Source: Flavobacteriales bacterium (GTDB lineage: Bacteria > Bacteroidota > Bacteroidia > Flavobacteriales_D > Sanyastnellaceae). From it: a DNA stretch of 64,000 nt. The notes beneath the pieces are model-generated. The model did not search any database. It saw nothing but the letters and a program-made list of their open reading frames with translations, and was not told where the DNA came from. The stretch's first letter is position 1. Each line of letters begins with the position of its first letter. Position numbers and translations under genes: made by a program. Below, in pieces: positions 2,438-7,982 of this stretch. Where the stretch lies: NCBI GenBank assembly GCA_030729695.1, contig JANQWV010000047.1, positions 1 to 64,000 on the forward strand, read 5' to 3'.

Positions 2438-2445
2438 TAGATTTG
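2438..2445 (+). promoter_or_regulatory. Bacteroidota -7 promoter element (TAGATTTG) for the SMC-like operon
   Basis: Exact match to TAnnTTTG, 50 bp upstream of ATG 2495; weak -33. Confidence 0.5.
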
Positions 2446-2476
2446 TGTGTTCGGTGCGAATTTGTCGCACAACACA
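2446..2476. repeat. Inverted repeat TGTGTT-cgg-TGCGA-atttg-TCGCA-c-AACACA, possible operator or leader hairpin
   Basis: Both arms read directly; starts right after the -7 element. Confidence 0.6.
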
Positions 2477-2494
2477 TGACCTAAACTTTTTCGT

Positions 2495-5158
2495 ATGATA
2501 ACCCGAATTATTGGGATAAACACCAGCACCTATGTGAACGCGGAAATGCGTTTAGACGATTGCGATTCATTGCAATTGGTAGGTCCTAACAACGTTGGTA
2601 AGTCAACCCTTATTTACACCTTGAACTTCTTGTTCATTGTAGATGGATCGAAGATGTCCTTTTCAGGACAGCGCCGCGGCGACAAGGAGACCATTCATCA
2701 CTACTTCCCTACTCACAATCAGAGTTACATTATTTTCGAAATCAAGAAGAACGATTCCAACTATTGTATCCTTGTTAAACGAGACAGTGATGGTGAATTG
2801 GAGTACTTCCGTTTCACCGGCGAATACAATTCCGATAACTTCTTTAAGAGTGAAGGCGCTCATCAACGCATTCGCAAATGGGATGAGGTTCAAGATGAAC
2901 TTAAAACTGCAGGTGTAGACCTCTACTTATTCAAGAGTAAGACTGAAGTATTCAATACCGTTTATTCAAGAGGAAGGAAGAACGATGCTGCTATCTGGTT
3001 AGAAGATAGCGTTCGCACAGACGGACTTTCAAACAACTTCTCGAAGGTTTATCGTTACTTGATTAACTCGAAGTTAATCACGAACAAGACCTTAAAAGAA
3101 AGTTTGATTGTTGCCGATAACCGTGAAAACGAAGGCTTAAGCTTTTCACAGAAAAACAAAAAAGACATCAACGATTTGCTTCGTATCAACGAAGAAATTC
3201 GCACCGTAAAAAGCATTCAAAAGGAGTTCGAAGAATTCCGTGAAGTGGTGAATTTGTTCAAAGCAAAAACGCGCATCGTTAGCGATTTGGTTTATGCCTT
3301 CGACAAACAATACAACGGAGTTATCAATGAACTTGACAGTTCTCGTTTAGAAAAAGAAAAGCAATATCAAACAACGCTTCTTAATCTGAATGAAAAACTT
3401 AAACCGAAGCAGGAAGAGTTAAACCGTGAAATAGGAAAGCGTGAGTTAGAAGTTGAGATTCAAGAAAAAACATTCATCAATCTTCAAACTCAATTAGATG
3501 AAATTGCTTCTTTCGAGGGAAAGAAATTCTTGGAAGAATCGTTGTTGAATCTCGACGCAAAACGTCGCGAATCGGAAGTGCGCATTACCATGGTCGAGAA
3601 TCAAAAATTAGATTCGAAGAACTTAGAAGCGAAGCTTCAAAAGATTGACATGACTTGCGGCAAGCTTGAAGCGCAAATTAAAAATTACGACGACCAGTTA
3701 ATCCATAAGATCACTGCAAAAGATGACATTCGCAAAATCTTGAACACTGTATTTTCTCAAGAATTCGCGGCGCTTCCAAGCAAATTGGTGAAGAAAAAAA
3801 TCACCAAAGCGGGAACCACGTTAAGCATCTTCGATGGTGAAATTACTTTGCCAAAAGATTTAGTTCTTGCAGACATCCCTTCAGTAAAATCTTTGAAAGA
3901 TGAACTTCAGGAATTGAAGCGTGAAAAAGCTGAACTGGAAAAACTATGGGCGGTTGCACTGAACTTCGACAAAGCGCAAAAAGAGTTGAATACGATTCTT
4001 GCTGACATTGATGAAGTAAAAGAGAAGTTGAACAAGCTGAAGAACAAACCAAAACTTGAAAAAGAAGCCGAAGCGGTAGGAAAAGAACTACGCACCATGA
4101 AGGCTGAAAAAGAAAAGTGTGAGGGTGATTTAAGCAAGTTGAAAAAAGAACTTTCCGACAAAACACTCCTACTCGATTCATTGCGCGAAGAGACGCGTCG
4201 CAGCGAAGAGCGTTTGATTGAATTGAAAAGAAGAAAAGCTGAAATTGAAACCTTCGGAATTATTCCTACAGAATTCGATACAACAGAATCGTTGGATGAG
4301 ATTTACGGAAAAATCAAAATTTCGAATGCCGATCGCGATACGCTGAAAGGCAACAAAGACCGTATGTTCGACCACTTGCGTTTCAAAACGAATTCAGCAA
4401 TGGCCGATGAAGAAGAATTCATCAAGTATGTGGAAGATGAAATTGCATGTATCAACGATAAAGTAAAAAGTATCGATGGTCTATTGGGAAGTATCTCTAC
4501 CCAGTTTGCAAATCCTGCATTCAACCTTCGTAAGCGTTACGAAGAATTCAAAACGTTCGTATACAATCGCTTCAACGAAAGCTTGGCAAAAACAAGAATC
4601 TCGAACATTGAGTCGCTTCGCATTGAACTCGTAGACAACAAGCGCGTATTGTTCGATCTAGAGAGAATTGCTTCGATTGAAAATTTAAATTCGCAATTGG
4701 CTTTCGAGTTTGAACAAGGCGAAGATTTGAAAATCTTGAATCAATACCTCGACAGCGGAAAGACCATTGACTTCGAAGACTTATTCGACATTGAATTGCA
4801 TCTCGATGTTAAAGGAAAACTGAAGCGAGTTGACTTGAAAGAACAAGTTGAATCTGATGGAACTGACCGTATGATTCGTTTGGTTATCGTTATGGCTATC
4901 ATCAACCGTTTAGCTGTTTCAGCGCCAGAGAATAAAATTGCCTTATTCATCGATGAGATTGGAACCATTGACGAGCATAACCGTCCGCAATTGGTTCAGT
5001 TCTGTAAAGAACACAACTTCCTCCCAATCTTCGCTGCTCCGCAGCCGTATGACGGATTCTCGAAGTACTACTTCATCTTCCGTTCGAAAGGAAAAATTAA
5101 TTTAAACGACAAGCAGCACGCTGTGCGTCGTGAAGACCTAAAAATAACTGAAAACTAA
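2495..5158 (+). CDS. SMC/MukB/JetC-like ATPase
   Basis: Walker A GPNNVGKST, long Glu/Lys-rich coiled-coil region, Walker B KIALFIDEIGTID; non-canonical signature-like region SDGTDRMIRLVIVMAIINRLA. Confidence 0.75.
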   Translation: MITRIIGINTSTYVNAEMRLDDCDSLQLVGPNNVGKSTLIYTLNFLFIVDGSKMSFSGQRRGDKETIHHYFPTHNQSYIIFEIKKNDSNYCILVKRDSDGELEYFRFTGEYNSDNFFKSEGAHQRIRKWDEVQDELKTAGVDLYLFKSKTEVFNTVYSRGRKNDAAIWLEDSVRTDGLSNNFSKVYRYLINSKLITNKTLKESLIVADNRENEGLSFSQKNKKDINDLLRINEEIRTVKSIQKEFEEFREVVNLFKAKTRIVSDLVYAFDKQYNGVINELDSSRLEKEKQYQTTLLNLNEKLKPKQEELNREIGKRELEVEIQEKTFINLQTQLDEIASFEGKKFLEESLLNLDAKRRESEVRITMVENQKLDSKNLEAKLQKIDMTCGKLEAQIKNYDDQLIHKITAKDDIRKILNTVFSQEFAALPSKLVKKKITKAGTTLSIFDGEITLPKDLVLADIPSVKSLKDELQELKREKAELEKLWAVALNFDKAQKELNTILADIDEVKEKLNKLKNKPKLEKEAEAVGKELRTMKAEKEKCEGDLSKLKKELSDKTLLLDSLREETRRSEERLIELKRRKAEIETFGIIPTEFDTTESLDEIYGKIKISNADRDTLKGNKDRMFDHLRFKTNSAMADEEEFIKYVEDEIACINDKVKSIDGLLGSISTQFANPAFNLRKRYEEFKTFVYNRFNESLAKTRISNIESLRIELVDNKRVLFDLERIASIENLNSQLAFEFEQGEDLKILNQYLDSGKTIDFEDLFDIELHLDVKGKLKRVDLKEQVESDGTDRMIRLVIVMAIINRLAVSAPENKIALFIDEIGTIDEHNRPQLVQFCKEHNFLPIFAAPQPYDGFSKYYFIFRSKGKINLNDKQHAVRREDLKITEN

Positions 5159-5265
5159 TGTCAACATTACTTACTGCCCCAAACTTCGCAACGCTTTACC
5201 CTTCAAACATTCAAGACATTGAAGAGGTAAAAGTTTGCTACCATTTAGAATCAGAAGAAAAATGA
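5158..5265 (+). CDS. 35-aa micro-ORF between SMC-like and kleisin-like genes (MSTLLTAPNFATLYPSNIQDIEEVKVCYHLESEEK)
   Basis: ATG overlaps the SMC stop (TAATG) and its TGA overlaps the next ATG (ATGA). Confidence 0.45.
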   Translation: MSTLLTAPNFATLYPSNIQDIEEVKVCYHLESEEK

Positions 5266-6458
5266 TTAAAGCCGAACCACGGACCATATTAAACTTCCTG
5301 AACACCTACTTCGATGTGGTGCGCGACTTGTTTGAGTACCAACAACAAGACGGTATCATTACGAAGGAAGTATTCGATATGATTTGTCATAAGCACGGTG
5401 CGCAAATGAAAAGTCGTTTGCGCGAATACCGTGTTGTTCGTTCGATTGGAAGTGATTTCGAAATGCGCGATGTGTATTTCAAGTTAATGGAATTTTTGTT
5501 GTTTGAATTCAAACCGCTTCTTCCTGAAACCATTGAGAAATACAAAGGAGCCATTGCCGAGCTTTTCATGAAGATTCGCAAAAGTGAACATTCCGATCGC
5601 GATATTCTTCAGGAAAGAATTAAAAACCTTTCCGGACAAGTGCGCGAATTCGTTGATTTAGTTGAACGAAATGCTTTCCGTTTATTGGCTGAAACTCGCG
5701 ATTTGAAATCGAACATTGATCGGGTTCAATACCGCGAAAAAGTTCACAAAGCGTCCTTCTGGATTGAATATTACATCCTTCCTTTGAACCGAATTCTCGA
5801 TGTAAATCACAGTGAATCGGTAACCAGCAAGTTGGTTGAAGTGTGTGAATACGCGAACAGAAAACGTCTCGACTACTCCGATGAAACCACGCGTAGTGAA
5901 TATGAAAAACTATACACTCAGCTCATTCAAACCAACCAAGACTTATTGAAGCAATCGAAGATTCTGACCAACGAACTTCTTCCTTTGCTCGAGCGCATTC
6001 GCACAGAATCGCTTATCCTTACAGGGTTCATCGAGTTCTTGCGCAATCCGTACAAAGTGGAAACACCACCATTATTGAAAGGAACGCGCACGATGGTTTA
6101 CGCGAAAGACATGTACTTCAAAGTGCGCGAATTCTTCGAGCAGTTTCAAATTGAAGCACCTGTTATCGTGGAAAATTCAGAAGCTGATTTCGACCGTTGG
6201 ATTTTCGACAGAACTTTATTCAAGGAAAAACTTTCGGCGAGTATGCCTGTGAACGACTTCTTCGGATGGTGTTTCAAAGCTTTGAAAAAAGACTTTGATC
6301 AAATTGAAACAGATAAGTTCTTTGCGGTAACCGGATTGTTATTCGATGAAGAATTGCAAATCGATTATTCGAAGAAAAGCGAACGTGTTTCCATTGAAAC
6401 CACAACATCGATTCTCGATGTGCCTAAATTGAAAATTGAACCCGCTATAAAATTATAA
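5262..6458 (+). CDS. MukF/MksF/JetA-like putative kleisin subunit
   Basis: Tightly coupled downstream of the SMC-like gene; predicted N-terminal winged-helix-like region followed by a helical segment. ATG 5262 chosen over the track's TTG 5235. Confidence 0.5.
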   Translation: MIKAEPRTILNFLNTYFDVVRDLFEYQQQDGIITKEVFDMICHKHGAQMKSRLREYRVVRSIGSDFEMRDVYFKLMEFLLFEFKPLLPETIEKYKGAIAELFMKIRKSEHSDRDILQERIKNLSGQVREFVDLVERNAFRLLAETRDLKSNIDRVQYREKVHKASFWIEYYILPLNRILDVNHSESVTSKLVEVCEYANRKRLDYSDETTRSEYEKLYTQLIQTNQDLLKQSKILTNELLPLLERIRTESLILTGFIEFLRNPYKVETPPLLKGTRTMVYAKDMYFKVREFFEQFQIEAPVIVENSEADFDRWIFDRTLFKEKLSASMPVNDFFGWCFKALKKDFDQIETDKFFAVTGLLFDEELQIDYSKKSERVSIETTTSILDVPKLKIEPAIKL

Positions 6459-6459
6459 C

Positions 6460-7002
6460 ATGGTATATCCAGCGCACCATAGACAAATTGTTGAAGAACT
6501 CATGAGTGGAAAGTTCTTATTGAACAACGAAGAACACTTCAACAGTTTGAAAGAAAACGAATCGTTCTACACTGAATTCTTCAAGATTTCATTCGACTTA
6601 GAATTGATCATGAAACCTGAATTCAGTTACTTACTCAGCAAAGACACTCAAGAAAATTTCTCTCGTGACGTGAGCATTTTCATTGCTATTCTTAGCTACG
6701 AATTGGATCGTGATGGACGCAACTTTATTGAGTCTTTCGACTTCAATGAATTTACTTTCGAAGAGATTGACAACTACTTCTTAAATAGCTCATTCATAGA
6801 TCTAATTGAAAGCAACAAGACCCTGCGTGACAATGAGAGCAGAAGAACTTTGTTGAATGGTATGGCTAGAAGAAATATTATTTATAAAACATTCGAAGAC
6901 CGTTTTACCTTTACACAAGCTTACAAAGTATTTGTAGACTTCGCTAAAGAACTTGCGTTGAAGCGCATCAAAGGCGAACCAGAAACACAAAACGCTGAAT
7001 AA
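6460..7002 (+). CDS. MukE/MksE/JetB-like putative kite subunit
   Basis: 180 aa, starts 1 nt after the kleisin-like stop; SYLLSKDTQENFSRDVSIFIAILSYELDRDGRN resembles MukE/MksE winged-helix region. Confidence 0.5.
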   Translation: MVYPAHHRQIVEELMSGKFLLNNEEHFNSLKENESFYTEFFKISFDLELIMKPEFSYLLSKDTQENFSRDVSIFIAILSYELDRDGRNFIESFDFNEFTFEEIDNYFLNSSFIDLIESNKTLRDNESRRTLLNGMARRNIIYKTFEDRFTFTQAYKVFVDFAKELALKRIKGEPETQNAE

Positions 7003-7460
7003 TGAAAAAACTGTTCTTCACCCTTGCGCTAGCTATAGCATGCCTAGTTAGCAACAACATCAATGCTCAATCGCTTGAACGTCGCGCAGCGATAGACATT
7101 TGCGAATGCTCTCACATCATTGAAAACAATGTGAGTCCGGAGTTTCGTGAAATCATAAACTTCAAGTTAATTGCAGAAACAGAAGATGAATTCAATACTG
7201 CAATGATCACATTCGTGACGAACAATCCAGATAAAGCCGCCAAGGATCTTGAGTGGATGCAGAGCATGAACGACGATAACGGACAATTCTTACGTTGCAT
7301 TTCTAAAATGGAAATGAAATACGACAACACGGAATTGGACACTCCAGAAATGTACAATTCCATTATGGTTGAATTGTATGAGATCGAATGCGACTTTGCA
7401 GCGGCATTGTTCATGTTTGGCGCTGAAGTTCAAGAGGCAGAGGTTACTGAAGGTGAATAA
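7002..7460 (+). CDS. Exported Cys-containing protein of unknown function (paralog A)
   Basis: Signal peptide MKKLFFTLALAIACLVSNNINAQ; CEC motif and two further Cys aligned with the next gene; ATG overlaps the previous stop. Confidence 0.7.
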   Translation: MKKLFFTLALAIACLVSNNINAQSLERRAAIDICECSHIIENNVSPEFREIINFKLIAETEDEFNTAMITFVTNNPDKAAKDLEWMQSMNDDNGQFLRCISKMEMKYDNTELDTPEMYNSIMVELYEIECDFAAALFMFGAEVQEAEVTEGE

Positions 7461-7488
7461 AAATTAAATTAATCAAAACACATAGAAT

Positions 7489-7929
7489 ATGAAAATCAAA
7501 ACTTCAATAGCCATAATTGCTGCGGCGGTAGTTCTCGTTGCTTCCGGATGCAGCATGGGCAAAGAAAAAGAGGTAGCAGCAGATGCTTGTGAGTGCACAA
7601 AAGCTCTCGAAAACAAACTTAGTCCGACGCTCGTAAATATCATCGTTGAATCTTCAAATGCTGAAAATCCTGAAAAAGCTATTGAAGAAAAAATGACTGC
7701 TTTGGATAGCGATCAAATGATGGCAATCGTTCCAGATTTAGAAATTTTAGCCGAGTTGGAAAGTGAAGACGGTGAATTCATTCAATGTGTAAATGGACTT
7801 GAGAAGAAATATGAAAATGCCTACACTTTTAATGAAGAGGAAAGTATGAAAGAAGTGTTGATTGAAATGGAAAAACTAGATTGCGCATTTGGTGTTGCTG
7901 TTCTTAAAATGGGGTTAAACGCAAAATAA
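7489..7929 (+). CDS. Predicted lipoprotein, paralog B of the preceding gene
   Basis: Lipobox-like LVASGC; CECTKALENKLSP, GEFIQCV, KLDCAFG align with paralog A. Confidence 0.7.
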   Translation: MKIKTSIAIIAAAVVLVASGCSMGKEKEVAADACECTKALENKLSPTLVNIIVESSNAENPEKAIEEKMTALDSDQMMAIVPDLEILAELESEDGEFIQCVNGLEKKYENAYTFNEEESMKEVLIEMEKLDCAFGVAVLKMGLNAK

Positions 7930-7950
7930 CAACCTCTAAAAAAACTCTAA

Positions 7951-7982
7951 AGCCCTTGAAAATCAAGGGCTTTTCTTTTTTA
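7951..7982 (+). terminator. Intrinsic terminator of the SMC-like operon
   Basis: agcccttga-aaa-tcaagggct followed by a T-rich tract. Confidence 0.85.

Follow-up and report, generated by a model that had tools for sequence, protein, structure and literature searches.

A nuclease-free MksBEF-type operon in Flavobacteriales and its putative descent from a Wadjet-like system

Introduction

SMC ATPases, kleisins and kite proteins are the subunit classes of MukBEF, MksBEF and the Wadjet proteins JetABC, and in MksBEFG and Wadjet JetABCD a nuclease is added to them. The E. coli genes are ordered mukF-mukE-mukB, and the mks operons of Pseudomonas are ordered mksFEBG (PMC10123090). MksBEF of Pseudomonas aeruginosa consists of three subunits, an SMC, a kleisin and a kite protein, works without a nuclease subunit and coexists with SMC (PMC7485682). 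Defence systems have been proposed, as a speculation in the review literature, to be the origin of MukBEF and MksBEF (PMC10586767). Here, we analysed a window (the whole 64,000-nucleotide stretch of DNA, from a Flavobacteriales bacterium) that carries an SMC-kleisin-kite operon, and compared this operon with its relatives in other Bacteroidia.

Results

The operon is one tight unit of six ORFs, encoding an SMC ATPase, a 35-aa protein, a putative kleisin, a kite protein and the exported proteins EX1 and EX2, and it is closed by a terminator:

2495..5158, + strand: MksB-like SMC ATPase, 887 aa (Pfam DUF3584, AAA_21, Walker motifs)
5158..5265, + strand: conserved small ORF, 35 aa, MSTLLTAPNFATLYPSNIQDIEEVKVCYHLESEEK, between SMC and kleisin and overlapping both neighbours (coupled)
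5262..6458, + strand: putative MksF-like kleisin, 398 aa (predicted fold; AlphaFold, Foldseek)
6460..7002, + strand: MksE-like kite, 180 aa (Pfam PF21980 MksE)
7002..7460, + strand: exported protein EX1, 152 aa (signal peptide by eye)
7489..7929, + strand: lipoprotein-like EX2, 146 aa, paralog of EX1 (lipobox by eye)
7949..7973, + strand: intrinsic terminator ending the operon (11-bp stem, 3-nt loop, U tract)

The ORF junctions are, in order, TAATG (5156-5160), ATGA (5262-5265), 1 nt, TAATG (7000-7004) and 28 nt. Five junctions require six ORFs, and the one that the first-pass annotation had left unnamed is the 35-aa ORF. The ORF lengths and coordinates in that annotation were reproduced from the sequence, and the junctions, the strong terminator and the Walker A and Walker B motifs that it listed were all found.

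The 887-aa protein has the makeup of an SMC-type ATPase of MksBEF. It matched Pfam DUF3584 (1.2e-15) and AAA_21 (3e-5), and it carries the Walker A motif GPNNVGKST, the signature-like ESDGTDRM, the Walker B motif IALFIDEIGTID and a long coiled coil. A PDB profile search with it returned coiled-coil noise. Nine relatives, the most distant at 54% identity, showed no change in the Walker motifs and catalytic residues, and within the genus the protein showed 97-98% identity with a dN/dS of about 0.02-0.03, indicating strong purifying selection. The 180-aa protein was identified as an MksE kite by its match to Pfam PF21980 (1.9e-17, 64.5 bits against a curated cut-off of 27).

No sequence family was found for the 398-aa protein: searches of PDB and Pfam with the single sequence and with a profile gave nothing credible, and neither MukF nor MukE of E. 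coli showed sequence similarity to it in a profile comparison. The structure check proposed earlier for a kleisin fold placed MukF and JetA at the head of the Foldseek results. With a first AlphaFold model (13 homologs, mean pLDDT 59.5), the top nine matches were MukF or MukBEF chains, followed by JetABC; with a better model (43 homologs, mean pLDDT 76.7), JetA came first and MukF chains were among the best matches after it. These scores are modest, with a best E of 2.4e-3 and no TM-score reaching 0.4, and the order of the matches differs between the two models. The likeness to MksF/MukF-type kleisins is one of fold and not of sequence. Because of this fold resemblance and the position of the gene in the operon, we take the 398-aa protein as a probable kleisin that resembles MukF and JetA most in its predicted fold, the fold support being moderate rather than decisive.

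A scan of genome contigs gave 108 relatives, most of them recorded as MAGs of Bacteroidetes, Flavobacteriales or Bacteroidia. The order SMC-kleisin-kite was present in all 63 complete-gene loci of this first set, across which no further gene was conserved and the neighbours varied, being partly housekeeping genes. With loci added later, 122 had all three genes, some of them from the same genome twice, and 89 remained after removal of near-copies; the order was invariant in about 120 related Bacteroidia loci. The three proteins of this conserved operon may act as one ATPase complex on the chromosome. Among close relatives in the window's genus, the core was 97-99% identical, whereas the three upstream genes reached 77-95% and the exported genes 68-89%; the downstream DEAD-box helicase gene was conserved to the same degree as the core. 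The distribution of MksE across genera of the window's order is patchy. One same-genus genome at 96% completeness (G002) was found without MksE, which may reflect a loss or an assembly gap.

The gap between the SMC and kleisin genes holds a JetD-like gene of about 265-280 aa in six loci (L126, L169, L170, L212, L218 and L227). About 115 related loci have no nuclease in the operon, and a seventh, L100, has a C-terminal remnant only, in the same slot (tblastn 1e-4). By sequence the two nucleases tested matched known families weakly (JetD_C, 0.013 and 7e-4; PADLOC JetD, 0.004 and 7e-4). An alignment of all six showed invariant E and DxD residues, a pattern which we take to be typical of Toprim. 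L227, with its nuclease, has aroC and topA as neighbours, as do nuclease-free relatives, and L115, whose core is 95% identical to that of L227, has a short junction where L227 has the nuclease. Several other arrangements were seen. Genome G730 carries two copies, one divergent, nuclease-bearing and adjoining an SbcCD-like pair (L212, G730:C31:5000-20000), and the other nuclease-free and in another setting (L213, G730:C18:50000-65000). In L091 (9685-14180) the gap measures about 4.5 kb and seems to have received an insertion, namely two long ORFs whose starts resemble signal peptides. Another insertion in the gap is seen in L062 and L172, where an oppositely oriented ORF of 297 aa lies beside the small ORF.

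No JetD/MksG nuclease was found in the window operon or in the rest of its genome, where a profile of the six nucleases had no match; this genome is 88.6% complete, so the absence is not absolute there, and same-genus genomes at 95-99% completeness agree with it. The MksE family match, the predicted kleisin fold and the inspection of the slot thus bear out the first-pass annotation of an MksBEF-like operon with the order SMC-kleisin-kite and no nuclease, and the genome-wide search for JetD that it proposed returned none. Nor did any of the tested MksE-bearing genomes yield JetD_C. Among genomes without a nuclease in the operon, the six-nuclease profile gave one clear match elsewhere, in family member G025 (L250, G025:C24; E 3e-15), in a 289-aa frame that lies apart from the mks operon and is possibly another JetD-like system. 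Weak matches to the profile in frames of about 560-650 aa presumably represent different Toprim proteins, for instance primase.

The six loci with a nuclease fall at scattered places on the tree and six changes are needed, so parsimony alone cannot choose between gain and loss and would accept six gains. The ancestral locus may accordingly have been nuclease-free, with JetD-like genes entering the SMC-kleisin gap several times, and in L227 and L126 the nuclease is indeed more AT-rich than the core. However, the G+C content of the nuclease is near that of the core in L169, L170 and L212, the slot and the nuclease family are always the same, and the divergence of the nuclease tracks that of the core (Mantel r 0.72, 8 of 720 permutations), a correlation which fits repeated nuclease loss from a Wadjet-like ancestor. 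Because of the shared slot, this correlation and the degraded stub in L100, loss appears favoured, and we consider repeated gain unlikely.

In the window's family (clade f1), the same gap contains an ORF of 32-42 aa in nearly all loci for which the slot is covered, and this ORF is absent from other clades. It ends in the motif EV[KR]xK[YF][HN]L. Its codon-position differences were 0.28/0.15/0.51 and pN/pS in the motif was 0.22; this concentration at third positions and the low pN/pS indicate that the small ORF is coding. A remnant of the nuclease or of the kleisin was considered and rejected, since profile comparison gave a probability under 1%. The simplest guess is that the product may be an accessory peptide, or a fourth component of the complex.

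We also examined which other condensins these genomes encode. ScpA (PF02616) was found in 0 of 247 genomes of the window's order, the window genome included, although across the phylum 251 of 299 genomes have it. It was absent from 72 of the 73 MksE-bearing genomes; the exception, G244 (L169, G244:C1:1178000-1194000), is the only genome with both ScpA and MksE, and it retains a JetD-like nuclease in the operon. Canonical Smc (TIGR02168) was above the cut-off in 0 of 40 genomes, and Smc-ScpAB, looked for as an ScpA kleisin together with a canonical Smc, was not found in the window genome. Neither ScpA nor this MksE was present in 219 of the 247 genomes of the order, indicating that not all of its members need one of these two kinds of condensin and that the association of MksE with ScpA absence is lineage-bound; as the absence is inherited by shared descent, single genomes do not count as independent evidence. 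A Hi-C study reports the same puzzle for two gut Bacteroidetes, which have no recognised condensin (PMC10197239). On balance, we favour the reading that the operon encodes a Wadjet-derived, nuclease-free SMC-kleisin-kite condensin that probably serves the chromosome, in a lineage without Smc-ScpAB.

Alternatively, the operon may still be an anti-plasmid or anti-phage system which, having no nuclease of its own, would compact or silence foreign circles or recruit a nuclease in trans. Such a role would agree with the JetD-like nuclease of its relatives, one of which (L212) adjoins the SbcCD-like pair, and with the patchy occurrence across genera of the order. However, the rest of the window genome yielded neither a nuclease of the JetD-like family nor JetD_C, and PADLOC on the window proteins gave no defence match beyond weak ones. 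Moreover, presence throughout the genus at 97-99% identity beside housekeeping-type neighbours is unlike a mobile defence system. A residual role in defence therefore seems improbable to us, and we retain the chromosomal condensin as the preferred reading.

The signal peptide of EX1 ends in NAQ and EX2 carries a lipobox, VASGC (both by eye), and the two are paralogs, as had been noted before (27% identity, E 3e-16); neither gave a family match. EX1, which is under purifying selection, follows mksE directly in same-genus loci, where, as in the window, it is start-stop coupled to mksE, so co-expression within the genus stays plausible. EX2 occurs in only three same-genus loci (L038, L041 and L042). 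The neighbourhood check proposed earlier had a divided outcome, in that the core order is kept across Bacteroidia, whereas no other genus examined has the exported genes next to the operon. The claim of the first-pass annotation that the exported proteins replaced the nuclease did not hold, because the nuclease slot is the SMC-kleisin gap and the exported genes lie downstream of it, in the window's genus only. Despite the coupling of EX1 to mksE and the selection on it, it is very improbable that EX1 and EX2 cooperate with the SMC complex to link the state of the chromosome with the envelope, as in division or in anchoring to the surface, since all other genera keep the core without them and the ATPase-envelope link suggested at first thus finds no comparative support. 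We judge EX1 and EX2 to be genus-level neighbours or passengers, a pattern unlike that of a subunit.

Discussion

The condensin reading proposed above implies the following course of events. The ancestor would have been a four-gene, Wadjet-like system with the order SMC-nuclease-kleisin-kite, from which the JetD-like nuclease was then lost. In the present complex, an SMC dimer would be bridged by the kleisin and the kite and, by analogy with MukBEF, MksBEF and JetABC, may entrap DNA and extrude loops by ATP hydrolysis, thereby serving as the chromosome condensin where Smc-ScpAB is lacking. A wider and more tentative possibility, which we hold to be rather doubtful, is that Bacteroidia without Smc-ScpAB have repeatedly made a Wadjet-like complex their chromosome condensin through nuclease loss, and that the 32-42-aa peptide in the slot became a new fourth subunit. 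The operon and its relatives present one locus in three states, with an intact nuclease, with a stub and without a nuclease, in genomes without Smc-ScpAB, which makes a route from defence to housekeeping testable.

Compared with known systems, the operon would share with Smc-ScpAB the role of a chromosomal condensin, and its kleisin and kite belong to different families. With E. coli MukBEF it shares the resemblance of the predicted kleisin fold to MukF, and the MksE Pfam family that its kite matches also detects an E. coli protein, as seen in a control; the gene order SMC-kleisin-kite differs from that in E. coli. MksBEFG and Wadjet have the same subunit classes, and in related loci the operon includes a JetD-like nuclease. 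The window operon itself has none, and its order is B-F-E, or B-(G)-F-E with relatives included, in contrast to the mksFEBG of Pseudomonas. As the nuclease was searched for and not found, the operon is not classed as Wadjet. P. aeruginosa MksBEF is likewise used without a nuclease subunit; that complex coexists with SMC, whereas the window genome yielded no Smc-ScpAB, and the window's family, in a different lineage, has in addition the small ORF. Judged by gene content, the window operon is a nuclease-free complex of the MksBEF type, with a probable role as a chromosome condensin.
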